Below are positions 37,435 to 55,591 of a stretch of 64,000 nt of DNA, one piece after another. Where the stretch lies: positions 1-64,000 of the forward strand of contig NZ_REFA01000011.1 in assembly GCF_003852705.1 (NCBI RefSeq), written 5' to 3'. Within the stretch, counting starts at the first letter, position 1, and the number at the start of each line of letters is the position of its first letter. A model generated the notes under the pieces. It made no database searches. It was not told the origin of the DNA and saw nothing but the letters and a program-made list of their open reading frames with translations. A program made the position numbers and the translations under genes. This DNA is from Amniculibacterium aquaticum (GTDB lineage: Bacteria > Bacteroidota > Bacteroidia > Flavobacteriales > Weeksellaceae).

Positions 37435-37983
37435 ATGAAAAGCAACGAATCCGAAATCATACGCTGTATGCAAGATGCAAAAGCCCAAGAAAAAGGGTTG
37501 AGGATGCTGATGGACGCCTATCAGACTCGTTTGTATTGGCACATACGAAGGTTGGTTGTGGATCATTGTGTTGCACAGGATGTTTTGCAAGATACTTTCG
37601 TGAAGGTCTATCAGAATTTTCATCAATTTAAACAAGAAAGCAAGTTGTACACTTGGCTGTACCGAATATCGACCAATGAAGCCTTGCAACATCTGAACAA
37701 ACAAAATAAAATGAAAATGATGGATGAAGATGCCGATTATCACCTGAAAAACAGCATTGCACCCTTGGAAAATGAAGAAGATAAAATACACCTCTTGTTG
37801 AATGAGGCCATTGACAAGCTGCCGGAGAAACAAAAATTGGTATTCAACATGAGGTATTTTGACGATTTGCCTTACGAAGAAATTTCACAAATAGTGGACA
37901 TGTCGGTTGGGACGCTGAAAACCAATTACCACTATGCCAAACAAAAAATTGAAGAGTATATTATAGAAAACGCAAACCATTGA
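37435..37983 (+). CDS. ECF-type RNA polymerase sigma factor
   Basis: This 182-residue sigma-70 family protein lacks region 1 and 3, as ECF factors do. Region 2 spans about 15-90, with AQDVLQDTFVKVYQN and the -10 binding KLYTWLYRISTNEALQHLN. Region 4 spans about 125-175, with LPEKQKLVFNMRYF and a helix-turn-helix YEEISQIVDMSVGTLK. It is followed after 4 nt by a likely anti-sigma factor and then a periplasmic sensor-like gene, a cassette common in flavobacteria. The signal sensed is unknown. Confidence 0.92.
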   Translation: MKSNESEIIRCMQDAKAQEKGLRMLMDAYQTRLYWHIRRLVVDHCVAQDVLQDTFVKVYQNFHQFKQESKLYTWLYRISTNEALQHLNKQNKMKMMDEDADYHLKNSIAPLENEEDKIHLLLNEAIDKLPEKQKLVFNMRYFDDLPYEEISQIVDMSVGTLKTNYHYAKQKIEEYIIENANH

Positions 37984-37987
37984 TATC

Positions 37988-38533
37988 ATGAAAAATATAG
38001 ATATAGAAAAATTAGAAAGAAAAAATCGAGGACAGGTTCCTGAAAATTTCTTTGAAGAAATTCAAAACAATGTCCTTTCTAGAACGGTACTCGCTTCTGA
38101 AAACAAAGCAGAAACCGAGAGAGAAACCGAGAGAAATTCTCGTTTCTCGATTAAATGGATTGGACTGTCAATGGCTGCTGCTGTAGCATTAATTTTCGGA
38201 ATAAGCCAATTTATCCCAAATCTGAACGATACGGTTGAAGACAAGCCTATCCCTGTTGTGGTTAATAATCCGACCAATGAAAGAAAAGAAAATCATAAAA
38301 TTGCCGTTGATCACTCCATTGCCACAAATCAAGCACCAGAAATAACAGGTACTGCTCAATCGGATCAAATTGAGAATGTAAAAAATGAAAAACCAAACGC
38401 TACGATTAAACCCGTATCACAAACGGTTTATAAAGAACAAATGGATGCTGTGCTTTCCGAAATGAGCGAAAAAGACTTGGCCGATTTGGGCAGCGGCGGC
38501 GACCAAGATATTTATCTGGATTTATATTACTAA
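37988..38533 (+). CDS. Putative anti-sigma factor, single-pass membrane protein
   Basis: This 181-residue protein has a cytoplasmic part of about 50 residues (MKNIDIEKLERKNRGQVP), one membrane segment at about 55-75 (GLSMAAAVALIFGISQF) and a periplasmic tail rich in Asn, Thr and charged residues. The layout and position directly after an ECF sigma gene suggest an anti-sigma factor. No zinc-binding HxxxCxxC motif is present, so the usual ZAS domain is not supported. Confidence 0.65.
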   Translation: MKNIDIEKLERKNRGQVPENFFEEIQNNVLSRTVLASENKAETERETERNSRFSIKWIGLSMAAAVALIFGISQFIPNLNDTVEDKPIPVVVNNPTNERKENHKIAVDHSIATNQAPEITGTAQSDQIENVKNEKPNATIKPVSQTVYKEQMDAVLSEMSEKDLADLGSGGDQDIYLDLYY

Positions 38534-38551
38534 ACTAAAAAACATAATGCA

Positions 38552-39046
38552 ATGAAAGCAAGGAGAATAGTTACCGTATTGTGCCTATTTTGTGCATCGT
38601 TGGCTTTTGCACAACAACTGACGACAGATGCCTATAGAAGCATGAGCAAAGAACAAAGAAAAGAAGCCTTTGACAAACTGTCGATGTCCGAGAAAAAGAT
38701 GTTTATACGACAAATGAGAGAAGATCATTTGGTAAAAGAACTTCAAGTTTCGCCAAGCAATGACAAACAGTTCCGACAACTTTTTCATGAATATATGGAA
38801 AGCCAAAGAGTGATAAAAGACCGTTTCAAACATCCTGAAGATTCCGATAAAATGACAGAGCAGGAAGCGAAGTTGGAATTGGAAAACAGTTTTGTGGTAG
38901 GACAAAAGTTGATGGACAACAGAAAAAAATACACTCAAGAATTTTTAAAAATCCTAAGCCCCAAACAAGTGTTGAAACTTTTTCATAACGAAATGAAAAT
39001 GCGAGAAAAAATTGATCAACACAGGAAGAGAACAGAAGATCGATAA
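38552..39046 (+). CDS. Periplasmic sensor-like protein of the ECF cassette
   Basis: This 164-residue protein has a cleavable signal peptide (about 1-20, ending LAFAQQ) and an all-helical, highly charged mature part. The repeated pattern of SKEQRKEAFDKLSMSEKKMF and a later LSPKQVLKLF resembles Spy/CpxP-like periplasmic proteins, and such genes sit third in many flavobacterial ECF cassettes. A stress-sensing or chaperone role is inferred from that similarity and context. Confidence 0.65.
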   Translation: MKARRIVTVLCLFCASLAFAQQLTTDAYRSMSKEQRKEAFDKLSMSEKKMFIRQMREDHLVKELQVSPSNDKQFRQLFHEYMESQRVIKDRFKHPEDSDKMTEQEAKLELENSFVVGQKLMDNRKKYTQEFLKILSPKQVLKLFHNEMKMREKIDQHRKRTEDR

Positions 39047-39109: not shown

Positions 39110-39397
39110 TTGCATAGTTTTAGTTTTAGTTTTACGCCATTAAACACTTTAAAAATTTTATTTATTCTGAAAAAGAAACTTGTACTCATGGCGTTAACAT
39201 GCTTTTCAGTTTTTGCTTACGCAGAAAAAATTGTAACATGGACTTCCACTTGTGGTGTAAAACATTCCACGACCTATCCGGATAGTTGGACAGAAACACA
39301 AATAAAGAATGATATTAAAAATATCAACGAAACCCAATGTGGGGTAAGACCTAATGTTATAAACATGAAAGTAACGAAAGTATTAACATTAAATTAA
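39110..39397 (+). CDS. Small secreted protein with two cysteines
   Basis: The open frame gives a 95-residue protein from a TTG at 39110, but the start is uncertain. A credible signal peptide runs KKKLVLMALTCFSVFAYA, followed by a mature part of about 55 residues with TSTCGVKH and ETQCGVRP, two cysteines that could form a disulfide. No family is recognised. The gene ends 4 nt before a GLPGLI gene and is probably co-transcribed with it. The TTG lies in a TTGCATAGTTTT stretch that may itself be promoter, so a start closer to the KKK is likely. Confidence 0.6.
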   Translation: MHSFSFSFTPLNTLKILFILKKKLVLMALTCFSVFAYAEKIVTWTSTCGVKHSTTYPDSWTETQIKNDIKNINETQCGVRPNVINMKVTKVLTLN

Positions 39398-39401
39398 ATT
39401 T

Positions 39402-40163
39402 ATGAAGAAAATCATCTCTCTTTTGCTTATCGCAATTTCATCATGTATCTTTTCGCAAGAGATTTCCAAATCTTCAAATTATATGGTGATGTACGATGGT
39501 TTTTTTCAACCAGGAAAAGCCAAAGTGGTACATAAGGTGAACTACATTTTGCTCTTGGGAGATGATTTTTCTTTCTCTGCTCCAGAATCTTTGTTAGAAG
39601 ATTTTGCGACCAATTATACAGTAGATCGTTCTAAAATAGAATCGAATACATCGTATATAGAAGAATTAATTTTTAATAACCATCAAGAAATTTTTGCTTT
39701 TGGGACTTTTATGGACGACAAATTAGGATATAAAGAAAAGGTGGATTTGAAATGGAAAATTGAAAACGAAACCAAAGAAATTGATGGGATTGTTTGTAGT
39801 AAAGCAACCACTGAAAAATACGGAAGAAAGTGGGTGGCATATTTTTCTACACGATATCCTTTTCCAATAGGGCCTTATAAATTCAATGGACTTCCAGGAT
39901 TGGTGGTAGAAGTCTTTGATGAAAATAGAGAATATGTTTTTATTATGAAATCGGTCGAGAGAAAGAAAGTGGATCTAAAAATAAACTTTTCCGACATCAA
40001 ATTTGTAACAAAAAACAAATACAAAGAAACAGTTTATAATATCATGTTCACACTTGCTCCTTACCCCGTGTTTGAAGATCCAGAATTAAAAAAAAGAATT
40101 ATGGTTAATTTAAAAAATACAGAAGAAAGAAGAAACAATCCCATTGAACTTGAAATAAATTAA
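39402..40163 (+). CDS. GLPGLI family protein (copy A, divergent)
   Basis: This 253-residue protein has a signal peptide (about 1-19, ending IFSQ). The family core is GRKWVAYFSTRYPFPIGPYKF followed by GLPGLV (163-168), quoted in parts, and the C-terminus ends RRNNPIELEIN. The GLPGLI family (TIGR01200/PF09697, Porph_ging) is Bacteroidota-specific, secreted and of unknown function. It is the most divergent copy here: GLPGLV rather than GLPGLI, PFPIGPYKF rather than DGPYKF and a Cys at about 132. It lies 4 nt after the small two-cysteine protein. Confidence 0.85.
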   Translation: MKKIISLLLIAISSCIFSQEISKSSNYMVMYDGFFQPGKAKVVHKVNYILLLGDDFSFSAPESLLEDFATNYTVDRSKIESNTSYIEELIFNNHQEIFAFGTFMDDKLGYKEKVDLKWKIENETKEIDGIVCSKATTEKYGRKWVAYFSTRYPFPIGPYKFNGLPGLVVEVFDENREYVFIMKSVERKKVDLKINFSDIKFVTKNKYKETVYNIMFTLAPYPVFEDPELKKRIMVNLKNTEERRNNPIELEIN

Positions 40164-40217
40164 AAAGATTTTAACTTTAACAAAGAATCTTCATCCTACT
40201 TAACAGTGGTTTTTTAT

Positions 40218-40257
40218 AAAACCGTTTGAATTGCAATTCAAATGGTTTTGTTTTTTT
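40218..40257 (+). terminator. Terminator after GLPGLI copy A
   Basis: A 15-bp stem with one G-U pair joins 40218-40232 to 40235-40249, followed by a run of T from 40251. The rest of the 245-nt gap to the TonB receptor gene holds no coding region that I can see. Confidence 0.85.
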
Positions 40258-40408
40258 AATAATTATTGAATACTTTGTAACATTTTCAGGAAATTTACTA
40301 CCAATAAAATGTTAAATCACAGTTAACAACAAAAAGTAAACACAAAAAACACCTCCTTTTTTGCAATGAAAAGGTAGATTGAGATAAGAATAGAAAATAG
40401 ACTAAAAT

Positions 40409-43060
40409 ATGAAAAAATCGTTATCACTTTTCTTGCTTTTGGTATTTGCCATAGCATTTTCCCAGAAAAACATTTCTGGAGTAGTAAAAAACTCCGAAGG
40501 AGAGACGGTGTCCTCTGCCAGCATCACCATCGAAGAAAAAGGAAAAGACGCCATCGTAGCGTATGCCATTTCCAATGCCAAAGGAGAGTATAAAATTTCT
40601 TTTAACTCGGCAGATCCCAATTTGGACATCAAAGTAAAAGCTTTCAATCACAAAACTTTGGTGAAGGAAATCAGCAATAACGATCAGCAACTTAATTTTA
40701 CCCTGCAAACCGAGGCTACAGAGATTAAAGAAGTAAAACTGAAGGCGAAAATGATCACCGCTAAAGGCGATACCATTTCCTACGACCTGAAAGCTTTTGA
40801 AAACAAATCGGACAGAACCCTTGCGGATGTTCTAAAAAAAATGCCGGGAATAGAAGTGGGGAAAGACGGTGGTATTTTGTACCAAGGAAAACCACTTATC
40901 AAATTTTATGTCAATGGAAAAGATCTTATGGAAGGCGGCTACGGAACGATCAACAACTCTTTGCCCAAAGATGCTGTGGCAAAGGTAGAGATCATGGAAA
41001 ACCACCAACCAATAAAAATTCTTCAAGATAAAGTCCCTTCCGATCAAGCAGCAATGAACATAAAACTGAAATCCAAAGTCACCATGACCGGTCGTGGCGA
41101 GGTAGGCACAGGTTTTATCGATCCTTGGTTGTGGAATGTAAAACTTACCCCCATGTTTTTTGGTCAGAAAAACCAATGGATTGTTAATTACAAAACCAAC
41201 AATGTTGGAGAAGATGTGGAGAGAGAAGGCATGATGCTTTCTTTTGGATCCCATTGGGAAGGAGTGAGAAGAAATGCTTCCCAAAACGATTGGCTGAATG
41301 TAGAAAACGCATCCGTACCCAACCTGCCTCAAAAAAGATATTTGATGAACAATGTTCATTTCCTTTCTGCAAATTTATTGACCAATCCATTCAAAAATAA
41401 AGAATGGGAGCTGAAGGCCAATGCCAACTACACCAACAATGTGGTGAGCCGTGAGTCGTACAGCCAGATCAACTATTTTGCTCCCATCAACTCTACGGTA
41501 GTAACCAATCTTCAGAATAAATTTTACACCAACAAAGCCAAAGGAGAATTGATCTTTACAAAAAATGCCAAGAAAGGCTTTTTTAAAAACACAACAACCT
41601 TTAACCAATTTTGGAATGCCGATAGAGCCGATGTACAAAGAGGTGCAGCAACCGGTGCAGAGTCCATCGAGTCGCCTACTTCTTCTTTCCAAAACTCGTT
41701 GAGCGCGATATTGCCGTGGAAGGAAAAAATGATCAACCTGAAATCGTACATCAACTACCAAAACGACAGACAAACTTTGGATATTGCACCGGCTTCTTAT
41801 GTCAACCTGAACTTGCCGTTCCCGAGTACTTCGGAAATGCTAAGACAAGATTTCAAAATGAAAACCATAGAGGCCAATCATTCTGCCAATCTTAGTTTGA
41901 GCTACAAATATTGGACTTTCACCCCAGAAATTGGTTTGAATTTTTCCAACAATACGATCAACTCGGATTTGATGTTCAGAAACGGTGGCACGCTTCAGAC
42001 CATGGGACAAGCCTTCCAAAACGATTTGGAGTTTACCGATCTGAAACCGTATGCGTCTTTGGGCATTAATTACAAATCCGATAACTGGATGATGTTTGCG
42101 GGATTGCCGTTTAATTTTAAAAACATAAAAGCAGTTGATCCGCTCAGAGGTTTGGATCGTTCGGCACACAAAATAACCTTCGAGCCCAATGCTTTTGTTC
42201 AGTACAAATTTCTATCGTTCTGGACGGCGAATGTTTTTGCCAATATGAACCATAGTTTTGCAGATATTTCGGATGTTTATGCCGGTTTACTTCTTGGTTC
42301 GCCGTCGTCACTTTCCGCCATGAACCCGAACAATCCGTTCAGAGAAAATCAATCGAAATCTACAGGAATCCGAATTCAATACAGAAATCCTTTGAACAAT
42401 TTGTTCTTTAATGTAGGCACGAACATAAGCGGTAACAAAAGCAACTTGACATCGTCACCATTTGTGAACTCTTTGGGATATGTGGTAACCAATTATATCG
42501 AAAGAGACAACAGTTCTAACTCTTTTGCTGCCAATGCTGAGGTGGGAAAATACTTCCCGGCCATCAAGTCGAATGCATCGGTAACTTTCAGCTACAACGA
42601 GTCCAAATCTGAAATGATCCAAAACAATATTTTGTTCGACAACAAATCCGAAAGCCAAAGTTTAGGTTTCAAGTTCAACAATTCTTATTTTTCTTGGATG
42701 AGTGTCGATTATAACATGAACTACAATTGGAGCAAACAGATCAGTACACTTACCAACAGATCCTTAGGGTATCAGCATAATTTGAGCACCTACTTCTATC
42801 CGATAGAAAACCATACCGTAGGATTTGCTTGGGATCAGCTGAACTCCGGTACTCCGGACAATATGTACCACAATGCATTTTACGATTTGACCTATCAGTA
42901 CACTTGGTCCAAAAAGAAAATTGATTTTGAATTGAAGTGGAATAACATCGCGAACAAAAAAGTATTCGAAAGGTATTCCGTAGGTGCAACATCGGAAAGC
43001 TATACCAAAATCCAACTTAGACCGAGTCAGGTCATGTTTGCTGTTAAGTTTAACTTTTAA
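40409..43060 (+). CDS. TonB-dependent receptor with carboxypeptidase-like N-terminal domain
   Basis: This 883-residue outer membrane protein has a signal peptide (1-18, ending AFSQ), a carboxypeptidase regulatory-like beta domain (about 20-105, beginning ISGVVKNSEGETVSSASI) and a plug-like domain (about 115-225, with TLADVLKKMPGIEV). A large beta barrel follows, ending in the terminal Phe (MFAVKFNF) typical of outer membrane barrels. No SusD partner lies next to it; instead GLPGLI genes lie on both sides. The substrate is unknown. It has its own leader and a strong terminator. Confidence 0.87.
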   Translation: MKKSLSLFLLLVFAIAFSQKNISGVVKNSEGETVSSASITIEEKGKDAIVAYAISNAKGEYKISFNSADPNLDIKVKAFNHKTLVKEISNNDQQLNFTLQTEATEIKEVKLKAKMITAKGDTISYDLKAFENKSDRTLADVLKKMPGIEVGKDGGILYQGKPLIKFYVNGKDLMEGGYGTINNSLPKDAVAKVEIMENHQPIKILQDKVPSDQAAMNIKLKSKVTMTGRGEVGTGFIDPWLWNVKLTPMFFGQKNQWIVNYKTNNVGEDVEREGMMLSFGSHWEGVRRNASQNDWLNVENASVPNLPQKRYLMNNVHFLSANLLTNPFKNKEWELKANANYTNNVVSRESYSQINYFAPINSTVVTNLQNKFYTNKAKGELIFTKNAKKGFFKNTTTFNQFWNADRADVQRGAATGAESIESPTSSFQNSLSAILPWKEKMINLKSYINYQNDRQTLDIAPASYVNLNLPFPSTSEMLRQDFKMKTIEANHSANLSLSYKYWTFTPEIGLNFSNNTINSDLMFRNGGTLQTMGQAFQNDLEFTDLKPYASLGINYKSDNWMMFAGLPFNFKNIKAVDPLRGLDRSAHKITFEPNAFVQYKFLSFWTANVFANMNHSFADISDVYAGLLLGSPSSLSAMNPNNPFRENQSKSTGIRIQYRNPLNNLFFNVGTNISGNKSNLTSSPFVNSLGYVVTNYIERDNSSNSFAANAEVGKYFPAIKSNASVTFSYNESKSEMIQNNILFDNKSESQSLGFKFNNSYFSWMSVDYNMNYNWSKQISTLTNRSLGYQHNLSTYFYPIENHTVGFAWDQLNSGTPDNMYHNAFYDLTYQYTWSKKKIDFELKWNNIANKKVFERYSVGATSESYTKIQLRPSQVMFAVKFNF

Positions 43061-43076
43061 CAAAATAGAATTGATT

Positions 43077-43112
43077 AAAAGCCCTTTCAAATCCAACTGA
43101 AAGGGCTTTTTT
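43077..43112 (+). terminator. Terminator after the TonB-dependent receptor
   Basis: A 13-bp perfect stem pairs 43077-43089 (AAAAGCCCTTTCA) with 43098-43110 around an 8-nt loop, followed by T residues. Confidence 0.9.
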
Positions 43113-43155
43113 GTTAAAAAAATATTAAATTTTATTGAGATTTATCAATAAGTCA

Positions 43156-43163
43156 TATCTTTA
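43156..43163 (+). promoter_or_regulatory. Candidate promoter -7 element for GLPGLI copies B and C
   Basis: TATCTTTA (one mismatch to TAnnTTTG) lies 21 nt before the ATG at 43185, after the terminator of the receptor gene. It would drive the two tandem GLPGLI genes. Confidence 0.4.
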
Positions 43164-43184
43164 AACGATTAATTAAAAAAATAC

Positions 43185-44105
43185 ATGAAAAAATTATTTG
43201 CAGCATTGGTCCTCTGTTCAACCATGGCTACGGCACAGGTACATCGTTTTGTTTACGAATACAAGTACATCCCGAACATCAACGAGAAAGAAAAAGTCAT
43301 GGACGATCTTATGGTGTTGGACATCGATGAAAAAGGATCCAGCTACGAAAGTCTAAGTAAATTGGAAAGAGATTCCGCATTTAGAGCACGATTGTTCAGT
43401 GCACAAAAAAGCATGGGAAGTGGTGGATCTCTCAGCTTTTCTGGATTATCTCGTAAGCAAGGTACGGTAGAACAGAAGGTTGTAAAAGAATATCCGGAGT
43501 ACAAAACCTATCTTTTTGAAAAAGTAGATTCTGATTTGTACAAAATAGCAGAAGAAGGAAAACAAGACTGGAAAATCCTTTCCGAAACTCAAAAAATAGG
43601 AAATTATACCGCTCAGAAAGCAACGACATCCTTTGGTGGAAGAGATTGGGTGGCGTGGTTCACCACAGATTTGCCATTTCCAGACGGCCCGTATAAATTC
43701 CACGGTTTACCCGGTTTAATTGTAAAATTAGAAGATACAACGGGATCTCACATCATGACCATGGTGGCCAATAAAAAAATGCCCAACAAAGAAGAAATTG
43801 TAAACACCAAAAAAGTTGGAGAAGCAACCATTACATTTGGGACTAAAGAAATTCCGGTAACCGTAGATCAGTTTAAAAAAGCATGGAAAAATTATATAAA
43901 AGATCCCGCAAAAAACCTTAGAGAAATGTCATCAAGAAGTGTATCTGGTGGTGGCGGTTACTATACGACCAATACATACATCATGAAAGACCAAAATGGA
44001 AAAGAATTGGACATGAAAGAAATGATGAAGCGAAAAGAAGAAAGTGCCAAAACGATGCTTAAAAACAACAACAACCGAATAGAGCCTAATCTATTTAAAC
44101 TTTAA
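43185..44105 (+). CDS. GLPGLI family protein (copy B)
   Basis: This 306-residue secreted protein has a signal peptide (1-18, ending ATAQ) and starts the mature part VHRFVYEYKY. The core is IGNYTAQKATTSFGGRDWVAWF followed by DGPYKF and GLPGLI (174-179), quoted in parts. The C-terminus is rich in Asn and ends NNNRIEPNLFKL. Copy C follows after 7 nt and is its closest relative in the window: their first 28 residues differ at only two positions. The function is unknown. Confidence 0.92.
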   Translation: MKKLFAALVLCSTMATAQVHRFVYEYKYIPNINEKEKVMDDLMVLDIDEKGSSYESLSKLERDSAFRARLFSAQKSMGSGGSLSFSGLSRKQGTVEQKVVKEYPEYKTYLFEKVDSDLYKIAEEGKQDWKILSETQKIGNYTAQKATTSFGGRDWVAWFTTDLPFPDGPYKFHGLPGLIVKLEDTTGSHIMTMVANKKMPNKEEIVNTKKVGEATITFGTKEIPVTVDQFKKAWKNYIKDPAKNLREMSSRSVSGGGGYYTTNTYIMKDQNGKELDMKEMMKRKEESAKTMLKNNNNRIEPNLFKL

Positions 44106-44112
44106 TACAAAC

Positions 44113-45000
44113 ATGAAAAAATTATTCGCACTATTGGTGCTGTGCACCACCATGGCAACCGCTCAGGTACATCGTTTTGTGTACGAGTACAAATACCAAC
44201 CCAACTCCAAACTTAAAGACACCATCTATCAAGACCTAATGGCGCTGGATATAGATGCCAAAGGCTCGGTGTACAAATCCTTACACAAAATACAAACCGA
44301 CTCGATAAAAGCAGAAATCTGGAAAAATTTTAAACCAGGTGTTACTACCAATATTGATCTTTCCGGAACCGGATCTAAAAAAGGAACCGTCAGCACTTCT
44401 GTAATAAAGGATTATGCAAAAAATGAGGTCTTTTTATTGAAAGATTTGGACGGGCAGAATTATAAAATTAAAGAAGAAGAAAAACAGCTGTGGAAAATTT
44501 CACCTGAAAAAAAGAAAATAGGAAACTACACTGCCCAAAAAGCAACAACTTCTTGGGGTGGAAGGGATTGGACGGCATGGTTTGTAGAAGAACTTCCTTT
44601 CCCTGATGGACCCTACAAATTCCAAGGATTACCGGGGCTTATTGTAAGCATTGAAGACGCAACAGGCGGTTTTAAAATGAACATGATCGCCAACAAAAAA
44701 CTACAACCAAAAGTTGAAGTAAAAGAAAAATCACAACCCAATGGGTTGGTTTTCGATGGCGACAAAGCGATAGAAATATCCGAAGAGAAGTATAAAAAAG
44801 TAGTGAAAAACTACATTGCCGATCCTGCAAAAAGTATAAGAGAAATGGCATCCCCGAGCAGTGAAAACAGGGTGGTCGTTACTTCTTCGGTTGGCGGGAA
44901 ACCATTGGACTTCAAGGAAATGATAAAAAATAAAGAAGAAAGGGTCAGAAAATCCTTAGAGTTTTTCGACAACAGCATAGAGCCTACACTTATCAAATAA
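44113..45000 (+). CDS. GLPGLI family protein (copy C)
   Basis: This 295-residue secreted protein is the tandem partner of copy B, with signal peptide 1-18 (ATAQ) and VHRFVYEYKY. The core has IGNYTAQKATTSWGGRDW, DGPYKF and GLPGLI (172-177), and the C-terminus ends FDNSIEPTLIK. B and C are co-transcribed and end in a strong terminator. Silent sites have diverged between them although the N-termini are nearly identical in protein. Confidence 0.92.
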   Translation: MKKLFALLVLCTTMATAQVHRFVYEYKYQPNSKLKDTIYQDLMALDIDAKGSVYKSLHKIQTDSIKAEIWKNFKPGVTTNIDLSGTGSKKGTVSTSVIKDYAKNEVFLLKDLDGQNYKIKEEEKQLWKISPEKKKIGNYTAQKATTSWGGRDWTAWFVEELPFPDGPYKFQGLPGLIVSIEDATGGFKMNMIANKKLQPKVEVKEKSQPNGLVFDGDKAIEISEEKYKKVVKNYIADPAKSIREMASPSSENRVVVTSSVGGKPLDFKEMIKNKEERVRKSLEFFDNSIEPTLIK

Positions 45001-45004
45001 ATAG

Positions 45005-45030
45005 AAAAGCCCGAAATATTCGGGCTTTTT
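45005..45030. terminator. Bidirectional terminator after GLPGLI copy C
   Basis: An 11-bp perfect stem pairs 45005-45015 (AAAAGCCCGAA) with 45019-45029 around a 3-nt loop, then T residues. It lies 3 nt from the stop of the convergent DinB gene. Confidence 0.9.
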
Positions 45031-45032
45031 TG

Positions 45033-45530
45033 TTAAAAATTATTTTCATCTGCAGACGGACCGTATGCACCGGGTACCGGGATGTTGTTCAGTCTGTAAT
45101 AGACCCCCAATTGTGCTCGGTGGTGGGTTATTTGATTGAGAGAATGCCTTAGAGCTTCGTACTTGGACCAATCTTGTAGAATTTGTCCGTTCATTTTCAT
45201 GGCCCATCTTCCGTCCAACTTTTCTTCGGAAATCGCATTCAAAGCCTTTATTCCGGTTTCATAATCTTGTGCAAGTTTGTCTGTCAATTCTTGTTTGGTG
45301 TTGAGGTGGGTAGGTTGGTAATCGCCTTTTCCAAAATCCAATTCGGTGGTGTTGATGATGGTTTCCGGCCAAGCAAATATCTCGACAATGTGCGTGGCAA
45401 GCGGCATCAGCTTCATGGATTTTTCGTGTGGACTGTATTCGTTTTGTCCTTCTGGGAATTGCTCAATGAATTTTTTTGTGGTTTCGAATTCGTGCTGAAA
45501 TTCTTGTTTTAACAAATTTAAAGTATTCAT
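45033..45530 (-). CDS. DinB family protein
   Basis: This 165-residue cytoplasmic four-helix protein matches the DinB/YfiT-like superfamily: NLLKQEFQHEFETTKKFIEQFPEGQNEYSPHEKSM pattern (given in part) and a metal-ligand set of His in LATHIVEI and in ITHHRAQLGVYYR near residue 137. Members are metal-dependent and some act as thiol-dependent transferases; the function here is unknown. It is a single gene on the minus strand inside the plus-strand GLPGLI group. Confidence 0.85.
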   Translation of the reverse strand: MNTLNLLKQEFQHEFETTKKFIEQFPEGQNEYSPHEKSMKLMPLATHIVEIFAWPETIINTTELDFGKGDYQPTHLNTKQELTDKLAQDYETGIKALNAISEEKLDGRWAMKMNGQILQDWSKYEALRHSLNQITHHRAQLGVYYRLNNIPVPGAYGPSADENNF

Positions 45531-45711
45531 AATATTTTGAAATTTAGAAGATTAAAATTAAAATAAATCTTTCATAAGTTTTGGATAAATAATGATAAAC
45601 TTTTATTAAAATTTGTAACATTCCATAAATTTTGAACACTAATTGTGTACCATGAGGAAAAGAAGTTTTGTTGAAAACGCTATTCTTCATTCATCAAAAA
45701 TCAAAAATAAC

Positions 45712-46617
45712 ATGAAAAAATTAGTATTCTTAGCCCTGATGTCTGTTGGCTTTAGCTCTTATGCACAAAGCAATACAGAGACAAAAATCCCTGCCAATCG
45801 TTTTTTTTATCAATTGACCATCAAGCCTAAAAAAGATTCTGCAAAATTGGAAAAAGTGATGACCGTATTGGATATTACGGATAAAAAATCGCTTTATCAG
45901 GATTATACAATGCTAGCACAAGATTCAATCATCAAAGTGAAAGTCGAAGAAATGCAGAAAACCAATGTTTTCAAGGATATGTCCAAAGATATTGTGATGC
46001 CTAAATTCGCCTATAAAGTAGCCAAAAGCTATCCAGAAATGAACATTCAATATTCCGAAGGGATGATGAACGGGATGTCTCCGGTACAATTGGCATACAA
46101 AGAAAATCCGCAATTCAATTGGAAAATTACAGGCGAAAAACAGAAAATAGGCGAGTACAATACCCAAAAAGCTACCGCAACATTTGGAGGTAGAAATTGG
46201 ACGGCGTGGTTCTCCAATGATATCACTTTGCAAGACGGACCTTACAAATTCCACGGATTACCGGGATTGATTGTAAAAGTAGAAGATACCGACAAAAATT
46301 ATTCTTGGGAACTAAAAGGAAACAAAAAAATAGACGATTTCCAGGAAGAATCCTATGCTGAAAAAGTAAGACCTGGTGGTGCCGGAAGAGTGGTTGAGGT
46401 AAGCCGTGACAAATTTGAGAAAACATTTTCCGACTATAGAAAAGACCCTTTTGCTTCGGTAAGGCAACACATCCCAGCGAACATGATGTCGCAAAAAATG
46501 CCAGGCATGGACAAGACCATCGGAGAAATGGTAAAAGATCAAGAGAAAATGATGAAGGATTTTTACAATTCCAACGACAATCCTATAGAATTTTGGACTC
46601 CTGAGAAAAAGAAATAA
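45712..46617 (+). CDS. GLPGLI family protein (copy D)
   Basis: This 301-residue secreted protein has a signal peptide (1-19, ending SYAQ). The core is IGEYNTQKATATFGGRNW, DGPYKF and GLPGLI (182-187), and the C-terminus ends DNPIEFWTPEKKK. It is paired with copy E: both have PxKDSAK after the signal peptide and FNWKIT before the core. The ATG at 45712 begins a normal signal peptide; an open frame from 45643 adds 23 residues without one and is rejected. Confidence 0.92.
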   Translation: MKKLVFLALMSVGFSSYAQSNTETKIPANRFFYQLTIKPKKDSAKLEKVMTVLDITDKKSLYQDYTMLAQDSIIKVKVEEMQKTNVFKDMSKDIVMPKFAYKVAKSYPEMNIQYSEGMMNGMSPVQLAYKENPQFNWKITGEKQKIGEYNTQKATATFGGRNWTAWFSNDITLQDGPYKFHGLPGLIVKVEDTDKNYSWELKGNKKIDDFQEESYAEKVRPGGAGRVVEVSRDKFEKTFSDYRKDPFASVRQHIPANMMSQKMPGMDKTIGEMVKDQEKMMKDFYNSNDNPIEFWTPEKKK

Positions 46618-46636
46618 ACATCAAAACCATTTTGTT

Positions 46637-47524
46637 ATGAAAAGAATTCTTGGATTTTTTACCATTTTAGTGAGCTGTTTGACTTTAGCTCAAAGCCATC
46701 GTTTTTATTATGAATTGACCTTCAAGCCGCATAAAGATTCTGCCAAAGTACAGAAAGAAGTTATGAGTTTGGACATCGATAAAAACAAATCCATCTACCA
46801 AGCCTATCAAATGGTGCAGATGGACTCTCTGTTAGAAGTTTCTATAGAAAACATGAAAAAAACAGGAGTCATGATGGATACCAAACAATTTGAAAATCAA
46901 AAAAAGGGATCTTTTGCCCATCGTATTTCGAAAAACAATCCGATCAAAGAAATCCTGTATTCCGATTTTTTAGGAACCGATTCGTATTCGTACAAAGAAC
47001 AGCCCAATTTCAATTGGAAAATTACTTCTGACAAATCAAAAATAGGTGAATACAACGCCCAAAAAGCAAGCACCGAATACGGCGGTAGAAAGTGGACGGC
47101 TTGGTTCTCTACCGATCTTCCATTTCAGGATGGACCTTACAAATTTTACGGTTTGCCTGGCCTCATTGTGAAAATAGAAGACGAGGGTAAAAATTATTCC
47201 TGGGAGCTAAAAGGAAACAAGCAAATCAAAAAAATAGCTGATGAATTGTACTTCCAAAGCATGATGAAACAGTCCCCAATTGGGAATAAAACCATGGAGG
47301 TGAGCAAGGAGAAGTTTAACGAAAAATACGAAGCCTATAAAAAAGATCCGTTAGCAAGTGTGAGACAAATGCTTACCCAACTCCCTCCGGAAGCTCAGGT
47401 ACAGATCTCCGGAGCAGGTGGACAATCGGTTTCGCAAATGATGAGAGATGCCGAAAAACAGATGAAAGAAGAGCTGGCTCGTGTGAACAACAGCATCGAA
47501 ATTCCTGTTGTTAAGACCAAATAA
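46637..47524 (+). CDS. GLPGLI family protein (copy E)
   Basis: This 295-residue secreted protein has a signal peptide (1-19, ending TLAQ) and PHKDSAKVQKEVMSLDID early in the mature part. The core is IGEYNAQKASTEYGGRKW, DGPYKF and GLPGLI (172-177), with the C-terminus NNSIEIPVVKTK. It lies 19 nt after copy D, so both are co-transcribed, and a terminator follows. Confidence 0.92.
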   Translation: MKRILGFFTILVSCLTLAQSHRFYYELTFKPHKDSAKVQKEVMSLDIDKNKSIYQAYQMVQMDSLLEVSIENMKKTGVMMDTKQFENQKKGSFAHRISKNNPIKEILYSDFLGTDSYSYKEQPNFNWKITSDKSKIGEYNAQKASTEYGGRKWTAWFSTDLPFQDGPYKFYGLPGLIVKIEDEGKNYSWELKGNKQIKKIADELYFQSMMKQSPIGNKTMEVSKEKFNEKYEAYKKDPLASVRQMLTQLPPEAQVQISGAGGQSVSQMMRDAEKQMKEELARVNNSIEIPVVKTK

Positions 47525-47555
47525 TAGACCTTCATTTTAACTATTTATATTGTAG

Positions 47556-47589
47556 AGAAGCCCGAGAACAGTATTGTTTTCGGGCTTCT
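47556..47589 (+). terminator. Terminator after GLPGLI copy E
   Basis: A 15-bp stem with one G-U pair joins 47556-47570 to 47575-47589 around a 4-nt loop. Confidence 0.82.
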
Positions 47590-47644
47590 TAATGAGTTTT
47601 GTCAAGCTTTTGGTTTTTCTTATTTAGATTAAGTTTAAATAGCG

Positions 47645-47652
47645 TATCTTTG
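47645..47652 (+). promoter_or_regulatory. feoAB promoter -7 element
   Basis: TATCTTTG lies 18 nt before the feoA GTG at 47671. No Fur box was recognised with confidence. Confidence 0.5.
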
Positions 47653-47670
47653 CGTAGAAATTTTTCAGCC

Positions 47671-47928
47671 GTGAAGAGAGATCATTCCAATAAGTTAAGT
47701 TGTTTTCCACAGAATATCGATGGAAGAATTTGTGGGTACGATAACGACAATCTTAAAATGCCCAACAAAATTATCGAAATGGGATTGTTGCCGGACACCC
47801 TTTTCAAAATCCTGTATCAAGCCCCTTTTAATGGACCTTTGTATATAGAATTTGGTGAAGAGAAAAGTCGAATTGCCTTGCGTGTAGAAGAGGCTCAATT
47901 CATTATTGTAGAATCGACCACAGCCTAA
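47671..47928 (+). CDS. feoA: Ferrous iron transport protein FeoA
   Basis: FeoA is a small SH3-like cytoplasmic protein that helps FeoB take up Fe(II). The 85-residue protein has the pattern IIEMGLLPDTLFKILYQAP, FNGPLYIEFGEEKSRIALR and a terminal EAQFIIVE, as in the family. The start is taken as the GTG at 47671 (MKRDHSNKL), just after a promoter; the upstream open frame to 47599 lies across the promoter and is rejected. feoB follows after 51 nt. Confidence 0.85.
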   Translation: MKRDHSNKLSCFPQNIDGRICGYDNDNLKMPNKIIEMGLLPDTLFKILYQAPFNGPLYIEFGEEKSRIALRVEEAQFIIVESTTA

Positions 47929-47979
47929 GCTTCTTGGCTTTTGAAGTTTTGTCTTTCGTATTAATTTTTAACACGACCC

Positions 47980-50016
47980 ATGCAGACCGATCAAAAAAAA
48001 CAAATACTTTTAGTAGGAAATCCCAATGTTGGCAAATCTACCGTTTTCAACCAATTGTGTAACCGAAAACAAAAAACCGGAAACTATGCCGGAGTTACTG
48101 TTGCTGCCCACTCTGGAGACTATATCTATCAAGACCAAAAGGTAGAAATTGTTGACCTTCCTGGTTCGTACAGCATCTATCCAAGCTCTGAAGACGAAGC
48201 CATTTTTTCTAAATATCTGATAGACGAAGCCCATAAGTACAGCGGCGTCATCTATGTTTTGGAAGCACTAAGCATCAAAAGAGGACTTCTTTTGTTCCGA
48301 CAAATTCAGGATTTGGGAATTCCGGTTCTTATATTATTGAACCAAATAGATCAAGCTGAAAAAAGAGGCATACACATCGATATTCCTCTTTTAGAAGAAG
48401 AATTAGGAACTAAAGTTATCCCGACCAATGCCAAAGAAGGGATCGGCATTGATGAGCTTAGAAATTCCATTTACAACAACAAGTTCAGGACTTCCAACCA
48501 CATATCGTTCCAAATTCCTACCGAACACAGAGGCTTGGTTTTCAAAATATTATCCGATTCTAAAGAAGAAAATCAATATAAAATCTGGACGCTTTTGGCA
48601 TCCGAAACCTATATTGCAAAATTGGAAACCGTAAGCGAACAATTGAGGGATAACGAAGAGCTAAAGTGCTTGGTTCCCAAAAGATTGCAAACGCAAGAAA
48701 CCATAAGGAGGTACTTGTCCATCGACAAAACCATCGCCAAAGTCATCAATAAAAAACCTCAGTTCAAGGAATTGCTCACGGAAAAACTGGACAAAGTTTT
48801 GGTTCATAAATTTTGGGGCTATTTATTTTTCATCTTCGTCATGCTGATGATTTTCCAAATGGTCTATTATTTGGCAGCCTATCCTATGGATTGGATTTCT
48901 AATTTTTTCCTTTGGTTTTCCGAGTTTTCAGCAGAGACACTTCCTGCTGGGCCTATCAATTCTCTAATATCTAACGGAATTATTCCTGGGATTGGTGGGA
49001 TTGTCGTTTTCGCCCCACAAATTGGGATACTTTTGTATATGCTCTATCTTTTGGAAGATTCCGGCTATATGGCGAGGGTGGTTTTCCTTATGGACCGATT
49101 GCTCAGGCCTTTCGGGTTGAGTGGTAAAAGCATTGTTCCGCTTATTTCAGGTACGGCTTGTGCCATTCCGGCCATCATGTCCACCAGAAATATTGAGAAT
49201 GTTAAAGAACGGTTGATCACCATCTTGGTAACTCCTTTTATGACTTGTTCTGCTCGATTGCCGGTGTACAGCATCATTATAGAATTGGTGATACCGGACA
49301 AAACTTTTATCGGTATTTCTTACAAAGCCATCGCTCTTTTGGCGATGTATTTGGTCGGATTTTTCATGGCGTTGCTGTCGTCCTTTGTTTTGAAAAAAAT
49401 TATTAAAAATGTTGGTAAATCCTTTTTGGTAATGGATTTGCCGACTTATAAAAAGCCTCTTTTTGGTTACGATTTCAAGATTGTATTGCAGAAAGTTTGG
49501 GAATTTATCACAGGTGCTGGGAAAATTATTTTCCTTGTTAGCATCATCATTTGGGTTTTAAGCTATTTTGGACCCGCTCAAAAATCCGGTTCGTTTATGG
49601 ATGCCGATGTCAAGCTGAAACAATCCTATTTGGCAAAAATGGGACATCAGATAGAGCCCGTCATTGCACCGTTGGGATACGATTGGAAAATGGGAGTGGG
49701 GATCATCACCAGTTTTGCAGCTCGAGAAGTTTTTGTAGGAACAATGGCAACGCTTTATAGTTTGGACGATGAAGCTCCGGAAGGCACCATCATCGAAAAA
49801 ATGAGAAACGATGTGAATGAAAATGGCGAGAAGGTCTTTTCTTTTGCAACGGGTATTTCTATATTGATGTATTATGCTTTTGCCATGCAATGCATCTCTA
49901 CCATTGCCGTGGTGTACAGAGAGACAAAATCTCTGAAGTGGACTTTGATACAGTTGGTGTCCATGTCCGGTTTGGCCTATATCGTTTCGCTGGTGGTTTA
50001 TCAGCTGTTTAAATAA
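47980..50016 (+). CDS. feoB: Ferrous iron transporter FeoB
   Basis: FeoB is the Fe(II) transporter of the inner membrane with an N-terminal G domain. The 678-residue protein has G1 GNPNVGKST (13-21), G3 DLPGSYS and G4 NQID, then a helical linker. The membrane domain carries the gate motif SGTACAIPAI and later TCSARLPVY, both with the cysteines conserved in FeoB. The length is near the short end for the family (E. coli about 770). It lies between feoA and a Cys-rich companion. Confidence 0.96.
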   Translation: MQTDQKKQILLVGNPNVGKSTVFNQLCNRKQKTGNYAGVTVAAHSGDYIYQDQKVEIVDLPGSYSIYPSSEDEAIFSKYLIDEAHKYSGVIYVLEALSIKRGLLLFRQIQDLGIPVLILLNQIDQAEKRGIHIDIPLLEEELGTKVIPTNAKEGIGIDELRNSIYNNKFRTSNHISFQIPTEHRGLVFKILSDSKEENQYKIWTLLASETYIAKLETVSEQLRDNEELKCLVPKRLQTQETIRRYLSIDKTIAKVINKKPQFKELLTEKLDKVLVHKFWGYLFFIFVMLMIFQMVYYLAAYPMDWISNFFLWFSEFSAETLPAGPINSLISNGIIPGIGGIVVFAPQIGILLYMLYLLEDSGYMARVVFLMDRLLRPFGLSGKSIVPLISGTACAIPAIMSTRNIENVKERLITILVTPFMTCSARLPVYSIIIELVIPDKTFIGISYKAIALLAMYLVGFFMALLSSFVLKKIIKNVGKSFLVMDLPTYKKPLFGYDFKIVLQKVWEFITGAGKIIFLVSIIIWVLSYFGPAQKSGSFMDADVKLKQSYLAKMGHQIEPVIAPLGYDWKMGVGIITSFAAREVFVGTMATLYSLDDEAPEGTIIEKMRNDVNENGEKVFSFATGISILMYYAFAMQCISTIAVVYRETKSLKWTLIQLVSMSGLAYIVSLVVYQLFK

Positions 50017-50036
50017 GTCATTAAAAATCAATAATA

Positions 50037-50180
50037 ATGGATTCTCTAACCGTTCAGTACATCGTATTAGCCGTAGTATTTGTCTTGGCGTGTTATTATT
50101 TTTACAGATACATTAGAAAAAGTTTTGTGAAAAAAGATGGTGGAAAAGATAAAGATTGTGGCAGAGGCTGCTGCTCTTGA
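50037..50180 (+). CDS. FeoB-associated Cys-rich membrane protein
   Basis: A 47-residue protein begins MDSLTVQYIVLAVVFVLACY, with one membrane segment (about 6-24), a basic region and the tail DCGRGCCS. It matches the small FeoB-associated Cys-rich family that in many Bacteroidota and Firmicutes replaces FeoC. The cysteines may bind iron or a cluster; this is inferred. It lies 20 nt after feoB and is followed by a terminator. It is too short for common gene-finding cut-offs. Confidence 0.85.
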   Translation: MDSLTVQYIVLAVVFVLACYYFYRYIRKSFVKKDGGKDKDCGRGCCS

Positions 50181-50198
50181 GTTTATGATATAAATTTA

Positions 50199-50241
50199 AA
50201 AAAAAACTTCCAATGCAAGAGCATTTGGGAGTTTTTTTTTG
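50199..50241 (+). terminator. Terminator after the feo operon
   Basis: The sequence AAAAAACTTCC-AATGC pairs with GCATTTGGGAGTTTTTT with one bulge and one G-U pair, and a T-run ends it. Confidence 0.8.
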
Positions 50242-50541
50242 AATACTAATTGTAAATTTTTTAACATGAATCTGTTCCTTAAAGGACACAACCTCCTGAA
50301 TGTAAAAAGCATTCAGACCTACGGCATTAACAATATTTCCGAAAGTTTGTATGAGCAAAGGCTGATGACCATGTCCATGTTGATTGGAGCTACAAAGAAT
50401 TTTTAAATAAAAAGGCCGTCTCACAACTCGTGAAAACGGCCTTTACTTTATGAAATTTCCCGTATCTTTATTTGAGAAAGGTATTCGATTAAACGATGTT
50501 CAATCCTCGTTATTTGGCAACGATACGCCTTTCGTTCAGTA
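50242..50541. other. Gene-poor gap with a possible small ORF and hairpin
   Basis: This 300-nt stretch separates the feo terminator from the sufD stop. A 46-codon plus-strand frame (50266-50406, starting MNLFLKGHNLLNVK) is followed at once by a hairpin with AAAGGCCGT (50411-50419) paired to ACGGCCTTT (50436-50444). A second short frame (50450-50545) starts MKFPVSLFEKG. Neither resembles a known protein. The hairpin could terminate sufD on the minus strand. A gene remnant or a small RNA is possible. Confidence 0.35.
50411..50444. terminator. Hairpin terminator near the suf operon end
   Basis: A 9-bp GC-rich stem pairs 50411-50419 with 50436-50444, with an inner TCAC/GTGA pairing. A runs precede it and T residues follow, so it may end sufD transcription from the minus strand. 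Confidence 0.6.
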
Positions 50542-51822
50542 TTAAAAGCTTAAATCTACTTCTAATTTTTCCGCCAAAAGACTGGAAACTTTATCTTTTA
50601 ATTGTTCGATGTCTATATTTTGCATGGTATCGTTAGCAAAAGCATACAGCAACAACGCTTGTGCTTCATTTTTAGAGATACCTCTGGCTCTAAGGTAGAA
50701 CATGGCATCTTCATTCAACTGGCCTACCGTACAACCGTGTGAGCATTTTACATCATCTGCAAAAATTTCCAGCTGAGGTTTGGTGTCTATGGTTGCCCCT
50801 TCGTTCAGCAAGATGTTGTTGTTTTGTTGATAAGCATTGGTTTTCTGAGCAATTTTATCCACAAAAACTTTTCCGTTGAATACGCCTTTTGCTTGGTCTT
50901 TAAAGATGCCTTTATAGTTTTGGTACGACTCGCAGTTAGGTTGTTTGTGGTGCACGGCAGTATGATGGTCCACCAATTGATTGTCACCAATAATGGTAAT
51001 TCCGTTCATAAAAGAGTTGATGTTCTCTCCTGCATGGATGAAGTCCAAATTATTTCTCACCAATTTACCACCAAAACTGAAGGTGTTCACAGTAGCCAAG
51101 CTGTCTCGGTCTTGTTTGGCAAATGTATGATCGATAAGGTAAGTGGTTTGGCTGTCGTTTTGCAATTTGTGCCAATCGGCTTTGGCATTTTTTCCGACAA
51201 AAATTTCGGTAACCGAATTGGTCAATACAAAAGAATTGTCGTAGTTGTGATGGCTTTCAATAATCTCTACGGCTGCACCGTCTTCTACCACCAATAAGTT
51301 GTGTGGGTTGTAGAAGGTGTTTTCTTCTTGGTTTTGTGACAGGTAGAATACATGAATTGGTCTTTCTATTCTTGTATTTTTTGGTACATGAAGTACGAAA
51401 CCGTTCTTGGTTAGGGCCTCATTCAGTTGGCAAAAAGCATTTTCCGAAGAGGTTAAGGTATGAAGATACCCTTTTAAAAAATCAGAATATTCTTTATTTT
51501 CCAAAGCATTCTTCAAGGTTAGGACTTTAGCACTTTCAATAGAAATTTTGGAAAGTTCTGGGTGCATTATTCCGTTTACAAATACCAAGAAATCAAAATG
51601 CTCCTCGCCCAAATGCAAATCATCCAATTGTCTTTTGGTAATGTTGTGCGCTTGGTTTGGGGCGAAATTATAGTCTTTCTCCGTAATTTCTTTTAGGTGG
51701 GTATATTTGTATTCTTCGTCTTTTTTGGTAGGAAATCCTAAAGCTAAAAAATTCTCTAAAGCCTTAAGTTTTTCTCCTGAAAGTGAAGGTTTTATTCGTT
51801 CAATTTGTTCGTATAGACTCAT
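50542..51822 (-). CDS. sufD: Fe-S cluster assembly protein SufD
   Basis: SufD is part of the SufBC2D scaffold that builds Fe-S clusters. The 426-residue protein has the beta-helix core shared with SufB, including HHTAVHHKQPNCESYQNYKG and the C-terminal DVKCSHGCTVGQLNEDAMFYLRARG, quoted in part; the CSHG region with His matches the SufD family. It is the last gene of sufB-sufC-sufD, starting 62 nt after sufC. Confidence 0.95.
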   Translation of the reverse strand: MSLYEQIERIKPSLSGEKLKALENFLALGFPTKKDEEYKYTHLKEITEKDYNFAPNQAHNITKRQLDDLHLGEEHFDFLVFVNGIMHPELSKISIESAKVLTLKNALENKEYSDFLKGYLHTLTSSENAFCQLNEALTKNGFVLHVPKNTRIERPIHVFYLSQNQEENTFYNPHNLLVVEDGAAVEIIESHHNYDNSFVLTNSVTEIFVGKNAKADWHKLQNDSQTTYLIDHTFAKQDRDSLATVNTFSFGGKLVRNNLDFIHAGENINSFMNGITIIGDNQLVDHHTAVHHKQPNCESYQNYKGIFKDQAKGVFNGKVFVDKIAQKTNAYQQNNNILLNEGATIDTKPQLEIFADDVKCSHGCTVGQLNEDAMFYLRARGISKNEAQALLLYAFANDTMQNIDIEQLKDKVSSLLAEKLEVDLSF

Positions 51823-51884
51823 AATAGCTAGATTGTGTGAGTTTTATTGTTGAATTTGGAATGGGAGTATGAAAGAATCTAAGA

Positions 51885-52628: not shown

Positions 52629-52727
52629 TTTATTTTTTCTTTTGAATTGTGTTGAATTGATTATCCTGCATGGTGATGCAATACAATAGCAACGGTTATA
52701 TACTACTTTATTTGAAAGGTAAATTTG

Positions 52728-54176: not shown

Positions 54177-54285
54177 AAATGAATTATGAAATTAATAAGT
54201 AAGGTTTTTGTAAAAATGAAATACTGTATTATGATTTCACGATGTATGTAAAAGGAAAGATTTTGTCTATCCTTAATTTTTTTTT

Positions 54286-54615
54286 CTAAAGCGAAAAGCT
54301 CTCGCCACAGCCACAAGTTCTGGACGCATTCGGATTTTGGAAGACAAAACCTTTCCCGTTTAGTCCTCCGGAGAACTCCAAAACCGTACCTGCGAGGTAC
54401 AAAATGGATTTTTTATCAATGATGATTTTTATTCCGTTGTCTTCAAAAACTTGGTCGGCATCGCTTTTTTGATTGTCGAATTTTAAGACATATTCCAAAC
54501 CGCTGCAACCGCCACTTTTTACACCAACCCTGATAAAATCTAGGCTGGGATCGAATCCGTCTTCTGTCATCAATTGTACTGCTTTAAGTTTTGCAGTATC
54601 AGATACTTTGATCAT
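54286..54615 (-). CDS. sufA: A-type Fe-S carrier (SufA/IscA family)
   Basis: This 109-residue protein is an A-type carrier that hands Fe-S clusters to targets. The three family cysteines are present in GGCSGLEY (near 37-44) and in the terminal CGCGESF. Location upstream of sufB favours the SUF-linked member, though A-type carriers (sufA, iscA, erpA) are not clearly separable from sequence. Its promoter is at 54654-54647. Confidence 0.88.
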   Translation of the reverse strand: MIKVSDTAKLKAVQLMTEDGFDPSLDFIRVGVKSGGCSGLEYVLKFDNQKSDADQVFEDNGIKIIIDKKSILYLAGTVLEFSGGLNGKGFVFQNPNASRTCGCGESFSL

Positions 54616-54646
54616 CTCAATTTTTATTTAGAATGATTTTAGATTG

Positions 54647-54654
54647 CAAAAGTA
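54647..54654 (-). promoter_or_regulatory. suf operon promoter -7 element
   Basis: TACTTTTG on the minus strand, 31 nt before the sufA ATG at 54615. No -33 TTG is clear. Confidence 0.45.
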
Positions 54655-54738: not shown

Positions 54739-54763
54739 TTATCCAACGATTAAATAATTATTT

Positions 54764-55591
54764 ATGAAAAATGTTTTTCTAACCCTCGCTATGGGATTTT
54801 TTTCTTTGAACTTTGCACAAAACTCCCGATTTGTGTACGAAGTGCATATGAAAACCGATTCCATCAATAGAAACAACACCAAAACCGAGTTGGCTTATTT
54901 GGACAATGATGGAAAAAAATCGTTGTTCTATGCAGAGAAAAGAATAAAAAGAGATTCTATTATGCGGGTGGCTTTCCAATCCCAAGGAACCATAAGACCG
55001 GACAGAAATGCCATGGAAAACCTAAGATCGGAGATTAATTATACCATAGAAAAGGATCTTGCAAACCAAAAAGTGGACTACAAAGACCGTATTGCCAGAG
55101 ACATTTATACCTACACGGAAGACCGACCAATGAACTGGAAAATACAATCTGAAACGGCTGTTATTGGTGATTATAAAGCCCAAAAAGCCGAGTTGGATTT
55201 TGGCGGAAGGCATTGGACGGCTTGGTTTACACAAGACATACCTTTTATGGACGGACCGTATAAATTTCATGGACTTCCGGGTTTAATTATTAAAATGGAA
55301 GACAGCAAAGGCGATTATGCTTTTCTTTTGAAGGAAACCAAGAAAATTGGAGAACTTCCGAATCTGAGCAATATGGGTAACATCATAAAGGTTAACAGAA
55401 AAGAGTATCTGAAACAGCAAGAAAAATTTAAAAAAGATCCTGCGTCATTCTTTACCCAATCCGGAGGTAGAGGTCCTGGTATGCACACAGGCCCAATGAG
55501 AGGTGGTAACTCTGGAGATATGAGAAAAAGAATGGAAGAAAGAGCTAAAGAAGAACAGAAAAACAACAATAACCCGTTGGAATTGCAGTAA
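54764..55591 (+). CDS. GLPGLI family protein (copy F)
   Basis: This 275-residue secreted protein has a signal peptide (1-19, ending NFAQ). The core has IGDYKAQKAELDFGGRHW, DGPYKF and GLPGLI (170-175), followed by IIKMED. Its C-terminal part is unusual, with a Gly/Met/Arg-rich patch (about 240-255, GGRGPGMHTGPMRGGNSG) before the NNNNPLELQ end. It diverges from sufA, outside the main GLPGLI cluster, and shares the family's unknown function. Confidence 0.92.
   Translation: MKNVFLTLAMGFFSLNFAQNSRFVYEVHMKTDSINRNNTKTELAYLDNDGKKSLFYAEKRIKRDSIMRVAFQSQGTIRPDRNAMENLRSEINYTIEKDLANQKVDYKDRIARDIYTYTEDRPMNWKIQSETAVIGDYKAQKAELDFGGRHWTAWFTQDIPFMDGPYKFHGLPGLIIKMEDSKGDYAFLLKETKKIGELPNLSNMGNIIKVNRKEYLKQQEKFKKDPASFFTQSGGRGPGMHTGPMRGGNSGDMRKRMEERAKEEQKNNNNPLELQ

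Follow-up and report, generated by a model that had tools for sequence, protein, structure and literature searches.

In a window of 64,000 nucleotides from Amniculibacterium aquaticum (positions 1 to 64,000 of contig NZ_REFA01000011.1), we analysed six genes of the GLPGLI family and the gene of a TonB-dependent-receptor-like outer-membrane protein encoded among them. The first GLPGLI gene (39402..40163, plus strand) directly follows a gene for a small secreted peptide (39167..39397, plus strand), which ends 4 bases ahead of the 39402 start codon and was overlooked in an earlier note on this DNA. The pairing recurs in other Bacteroidota, the GLPGLI protein is confidently predicted to adopt the half-barrel fold of LolA and RseB with its antiparallel sheet, and receptors of the same class as that of the window (40409..43060, plus strand) are encoded next to GLPGLI genes far more often than expected by chance. 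We tentatively propose that GLPGLI proteins may serve as periplasmic carriers, some of them dedicated to a peptide, which would pass this peptide to an Oar-like receptor.

The association of peptide and GLPGLI genes was assessed in two collections. Among 80 named Bacteroidota loci, a peptide gene was present directly upstream of 50 of 139 GLPGLI genes vs. 14 of 452 control genes, which is not a family-wide rate because these loci were picked by likeness to 39402. The relatives set consists of fetched regions of the source and other genomes rather than of all GLPGLI genes of 26 genomes; here, a small secreted open reading frame (ORF) with at least two cysteines directly preceded 39/133 GLPGLI genes vs. 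24/420 controls. One GLPGLI gene of the relatives set (L031) and 4 of 143 of the named set were excluded for missing upstream sequence. Characteristic cysteine patterns occurred in 49 of the 59 small secreted ORFs upstream of GLPGLI genes at the named loci and in none of 280 elsewhere, the patterns having been derived from the same peptides, and the corresponding counts in the relatives set were 8/38 and 1/342. In eight whole genomes, each of the 16 matches of a peptide profile (E ≤ 1e-3) preceded a GLPGLI gene of the same strand by 51–279 bp; the profile already contained nine of the 16 but not the other seven, three of which form part of one array. A phylum-wide scan gave matches in 7 of 395 genomes and is a measure of specificity, not of spread, because the first 15 candidates alone were scored. 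Besides the window peptide, it returned eight matches, six of them directly upstream of GLPGLI genes (two of the six, L214 and L215, appear to be records that the profile or the named set already included). The other two, a secreted ubiquitin-like protein (L216) and a presumed cyclophilin of 237 aa (L218), are probably signal-peptide matches. The profile caught two such ubiquitin-like proteins, encoded in tandem (L216:852-1157 and 1474-1791) in a genome of the same order.

Judged by homology, the window peptide gene starts with a CTG at 39167, where relatives carry ATG, which would be either a rare start codon or the sign of a gene in decay; an ATG at 39188 is also possible. The gene is missed by an ATG-based ORF scan and was added by hand to the receptor/peptide analysis of the relatives set, to a set of 83 peptides and to the pair-correlation test. 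Its product, with a mature part of about 57 aa (TSTCG...C), shows 49% identity to the Chryseobacterium orthologue at locus L133 and matches peptide profile A5, which includes this sequence, at E 1.1e-19. Members of the family carry a signal peptide, as called by a simple script rule instead of a trained predictor, and cysteines at fixed spacing, usually two or four (two in the mature parts of 39 and four in those of 31 of the 83 peptides). Cysteines are most often spaced as C-x6-C-x(6-14)-C-x(12-24)-C or as [ST]CG-x(about 28)-C, and those of the latter correspond in the alignment to the second and fourth of the four-cysteine pattern. Peptides were found in Chryseobacterium, Flavobacterium, Psychroflexus, Salinimicrobium, Ancylomarina, Bacteroidales and one metagenome-assembled genome of the Sphingobacteriia. 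The AlphaFold2 model predicts a β-β-α-β arrangement, with the mature part mostly at a predicted local distance difference test score (pLDDT) >90; a comparison with the PDB gave a best Z of 4.7 and no match with E below 0.34, which is no proof of a new fold.

Scans of 18 peptides against Pfam and NCBIfam gave no match above a family cut-off and none to a metal-binding family, and of the proteins submitted to PADLOC (two peptides, the GLPGLI protein and the receptor) none was matched. An identity of the small protein as an EndoU nuclease was rejected, as the matches to PF14436 (E 0.004 and 0.0024) were below the cut-off and reached only 0.068 in its orthologue. NVEALA peptides, which together with DUF6520 represent leader-conserved secreted cysteine peptides of Bacteroidota, are likewise short, with a signal peptide and a variable core. 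However, the 18 peptides yielded no NVEALA match and only E 0.13 with DUF6520 for one of them, and they are tied to GLPGLI genes. A literature search for NVEALA gave no match, and another found no description of the peptide or of its pairing with GLPGLI. The peptide family seems undescribed, and we regard the member encoded before 39402 as a candidate ligand or cargo.

All six GLPGLI ORFs of the window, starting at 39402, 43185, 44113, 45712, 46637 and 54764, passed the cut-offs of TIGR01200 (120.7–180.5 bits, cut-off 50) and PF09697 (Porph_ging, curated), and the six genes and the single receptor are placed as the earlier note had described them. The codon pattern for GLPGLI was observed six times in the window vs. 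0.77 expected. Neither family entry gives a function, and neither includes a peptide partner or a link to receptors. In this bacterial family, the number of matches reaches 28 per genome; the source genome (2.55 Mb, 74 contigs) has 28 with TIGR01200, of which one is a PNGase F-II-type enzyme and the other 27 are GLPGLI genes. The AlphaFold2 model of the 39402 protein, built from 68 sequences, has a mean pLDDT of 91.7. Its nearest solved folds are the N-terminal domain of PNGF-II (4r4x; Z 15.8, root-mean-square deviation 3.1–3.2 over 167–168 residues) and 7zgn (Z 15.2), followed by LolA (Z 9.1), EPDR1 (9.1), P. gingivalis LolA (8.7), RseB (8.0) and MucB (7.5). GLPGLI proteins resemble the LolA/RseB carriers in predicted fold (Z 8–9 over about 125–140 residues) and in being exported, but share only about 3–12% sequence identity with them, are without a lipoprotein link and are encoded with a peptide. 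The closest solved fold, the bowl-like N-terminal domain of PNGase F-II (PF22252), also shows sequence likeness (E 1.8e-4; phmmer of 43185 to PNGF-II, 8.1e-5), with the PF22252 cut-off missed by the window proteins (best 24.0 of 27.6 bits, for 43185). Unlike PNGase F-II, GLPGLI proteins are stand-alone, lack the glycanase domains and carry the GLPGLI motif. The N-terminal domain of the PNGase F-II-type enzyme of the source genome (553 aa; contig 10, L131:1269-2930) passes TIGR01200 with 57.2 bits over 50, and this enzyme is a natural fusion of a GLPGLI-like domain with a glycanase. The available part of a report on the PNGase calls the structure of this N-terminal domain unique and its function unknown (PMC9522356); as seen here, it is GLPGLI-like and LolA-like.

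The alignment of GLPGLI proteins (A4) contains invariant residues Y31, A135, P158, F161 and G166 and no evident catalytic set, and a Pfam scan found no partner domain in the window proteins. As read from the leaf order of a tree without support values, peptide-linked and receptor-upstream copies mostly group with 39402, and the 43185–54764 copies, with longer N-rich C-termini, lie in another part. Both the LolA-type fold and this separate subgroup had escaped the earlier note, and the core GGRxWxAWF-DGPYKF that it assigned to all copies is not found in 39402, which has GRKWVAYF and IGPYKFNGLPGLV instead. Among published regulons, as far as the accessible parts of these sources go, a GLPGLI gene is listed in the PhoP regulon of Riemerella (PMC9603813), and the PG0720 regulon of P. 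gingivalis includes GLPGLI gene PG1492 together with PG1493, its neighbour by number (PMC8757827).

The receptor of 883 aa resembles Oar of Myxococcus in possessing a putative CarboxypepD_reg extension, a plug-like region and a barrel-sized remainder, and no SusD was seen among the ORFs at 36–48 kb, which were inspected by eye without a scan with a SusD model. The carboxypeptidase-like N-terminal domain claimed for it before is recognisable but scores under the Pfam cut-off (PF13715, 30.8 of 32.2 bits), and the orthologue in L133 reaches 34.5 of 32.3 bits with PF13620. In contrast to Oar, its Plug match also stays below the Pfam cut-off. Oar is a TonB-dependent transporter with CarboxypepD_reg and plug domains that is required for secretion of PopC, which needs the Oar plug and TonB box, whereas the CarboxypepD_reg extension is dispensable; its cargo is a protease, and the portion of the source at hand mentions no GLPGLI-like partner (PMC6434023).

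Receptor profile A1, built from six receptors of the source genome, was searched in 26 genomes and compared with the complete GLPGLI lists of ten. In these ten genomes, 20 of the 26 full-length receptors (>100 bits) had a GLPGLI gene no more than 1.5 kb away and always on their own strand, with 0.73 expected, and none of 23 weaker matches to TonB-dependent receptors did. Because profile A1 was seeded from GLPGLI-adjacent receptors of the source genome, we also give the count without this genome, which is 14/19. This co-occurrence, far above chance, makes it plausible that an envelope system acts on a shared ligand, as had been suggested from the window alone, whereas nothing shows the metal or haem handling that was part of the same suggestion. 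Two layouts were found, one with the order peptide-GLPGLI-receptor and one in which GLPGLI genes resembling 43185 come after the receptor. Both are combined at one receptor in the window and in its relatives from Chryseobacterium (L132–L134), with no peptide seen in the scan of L132. GLPGLI genes upstream of a receptor also had a peptide in 15/20 cases of the relatives set and 18/44 of the named set. Four loci of marine Flavobacteriaceae (L139, L158, L160, L188) contain rows of three to six GLPGLI genes ending at a receptor, without detectable peptides. A Cupin_8/JmjC-like protein recurs beside window-type receptors in 8 fetched loci, including L133:5298-6182.

Tandem peptide-GLPGLI pairs are 45–100% identical in the leader, 13–52% in the core and 23–78% in the GLPGLI protein, and the 5' region and leader are repeated at 84–97% DNA identity at loci L033, L128 and L035. 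The 5' leader motif TTGCAYAGTTTTAG(TTTTAG)n of the window peptide gene (39110..39139, plus strand) contains a 20-mer found exactly at six sites of the genome and with two mismatches at a seventh; three of the six exact sites precede peptide genes (C11:39110, C9:45336 and C9:46708), two of them at locus L035. The copy number of (TTTTAG)n differs between these 5' regions (window 39110–39139; L035:8337 and 9709), a variation that could alter expression. To judge from these identities, common leaders next to diverged cores and partners look like a repertoire changing through duplication and exchange.

The one-to-one tandem pairing, in which leaders are conserved and cores hypervariable, also fits the main rival explanation, in which the peptide is a toxin against siblings, the GLPGLI protein its periplasmic immunity protein and the receptor the exit or entry port of the toxin. 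Orphan GLPGLI arrays look like orphan immunity genes, and genes for XRE-type helix-turn-helix regulators are located on the opposite strand 69–666 bp from GLPGLI genes at 18 loci (L132–L134, L136, L138, L148, L151, L167, L036:6874-7188 and others). However, no dedicated peptide exporter or protease is prominent among the top 25 recurring neighbour clusters, as read by eye, one of which is ABC-transporter-like and occurs near GLPGLI genes of both kinds. Moreover, the GLPGLI genes next to feo and suf are conserved across genera, unlike immunity genes, and the LolA-type fold is a carrier fold. We consider a bacteriocin-immunity system unlikely.

According to the carrier model, GLPGLI proteins would be secreted periplasmic carriers of the predicted LolA/RseB type. 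Those of the 39402 subgroup are encoded in pairs with a small disulfide-type peptide, as the sequences show. The peptide would leave the cytoplasm by the Sec pathway, as its signal peptide suggests, and, once folded, may be held in the GLPGLI half-barrel. The GLPGLI protein would then bring it to the Oar-like receptor encoded next to it, which might move it across the outer membrane, in analogy to Oar and PopC. Paired copies with a common leader and variable cores would represent a changing repertoire, and the second, peptide-free subgroup (43185 to 54764), conserved beside the receptor, feoAB and suf, may handle another cargo or act differently.

Several observations speak against this model. 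No peptide was detectable for most GLPGLI genes (94/133 in the relatives set, 89/139 in the named set), and most are located away from a receptor of this class (104/133 and 90/139, respectively). The Plug match of the receptor reaches only 17.1 of 23.9 bits and no match to PF00593 (TonB_dep_Rec) was found, which profile methods may miss; the same holds for four receptor paralogues or orthologues. The likeness to the PNGase domain gives no function, because that domain is dispensable for enzyme activity, as stated in the part of the report consulted (PMC9522356). Peptides and GLPGLI proteins co-vary weakly within one genome (Mantel r 0.23, p 0.03, 15 pairs) and do not track each other in genome G002 (r −0.32, 6 pairs), with other small sets at r 0.66, p 0.07 (L209) and r 0.49, p 0.06 (G008). 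The value for all 88 pairs (r 0.82) is confounded by kinship, so the within-genome test is cleaner; L025 and L027 were omitted from these tests.

In the window, the peptide gene and 39402 (TIGR01200 7.5e-35) are followed by a terminator-like hairpin (40216..40251, plus strand; 16-pair stem and T run), the receptor gene and, on the same strand, GLPGLI genes 2 (43185..44105; 1.6e-47) and 3 (44113..45000; 1.4e-44). A second hairpin (45005–45029) and a DinB gene on the minus strand (45033–45530) separate these from GLPGLI genes 4 (45712..46617; 4.2e-53) and 5 (46637..47524; 1.1e-51), and a third hairpin (47555..47590, plus strand) lies between GLPGLI 5 and feoA. The five copies described as surrounding the receptor are indeed near it, but one is upstream and four are downstream, in an array split by the DinB gene. 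The hairpins delimit three units, [peptide, 39402], [receptor, 43185, 44113] and [45712, 46637], with feoAB beyond the last; single hairpins are weak evidence because the scan yields 13 sites vs. 7.3 expected. A search with a Bacteroidota-type promoter pattern was uninformative (5 matches vs. 5.4 expected). The sixth GLPGLI gene (54764..55591, plus strand; 4.9e-52) is divergent from sufA/sufB.

Directly upstream of the peptide gene (37435–39046) are genes for an extracytoplasmic function (ECF) sigma factor, an anti-sigma-like protein and, by a weak match, a periplasmic protein of LTXXQ/Spy-like type. Together with the fold likeness to RseB and MucB and the XRE genes at 18 loci, they would suit a sensing role, in which GLPGLI binds the peptide or an envelope ligand as RseB does and signals via the anti-sigma protein, the XRE regulator or the receptor. 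This is improbable in our view, as no more than 4 fetched loci share the ECF gene family, the GLPGLI proteins are without a partner domain and the receptor has no match to an STN signalling domain in Pfam.

TonB-dependent receptors usually import, and GLPGLI and the receptor might accordingly bring in an external ligand, for instance iron or haem, with the peptide as a secreted ligand scavenger. A GLPGLI gene is located 552–767 bp upstream of feoB in 7/10 genomes and divergent from sufB at 580–1020 bp in 7/10 (distances between profile matches, read by hand from match lists). While the suspected link to feo and suf thus stands as conserved gene order, which may reflect shared ancestry, a hairpin precedes feoAB in the window, a long distance separates the feo-linked GLPGLI gene from the receptor in genomes G010, G013 and G015, three of those with the feo link, and the peptides match no metal-binding family. 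No iron function follows from this order. Iron or haem uptake was rejected as the leading reading, because the units are distinct and none of their features is indicative of a metal; we keep import as a rival with a small chance of being correct.

Extended to the whole phylum, the carrier model would amount to an as yet undescribed Bacteroidota secretion route in which diversified, leader-sharing disulfide-type peptides have their own LolA-fold GLPGLI carriers and a shared Oar-like, TonB-powered exporter, a generalisation that we regard as doubtful. For the GLPGLI family, to which no function has been assigned, the fold, the partner peptide and the receptor together provide a concrete, testable handle. 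If the peptides do exit in this way, TonB-powered secretion would gain a second example and the natural secreted peptides a new pool; if they are instead toxins paired with immunity proteins, a large system of competition would have gone unnoticed so far.

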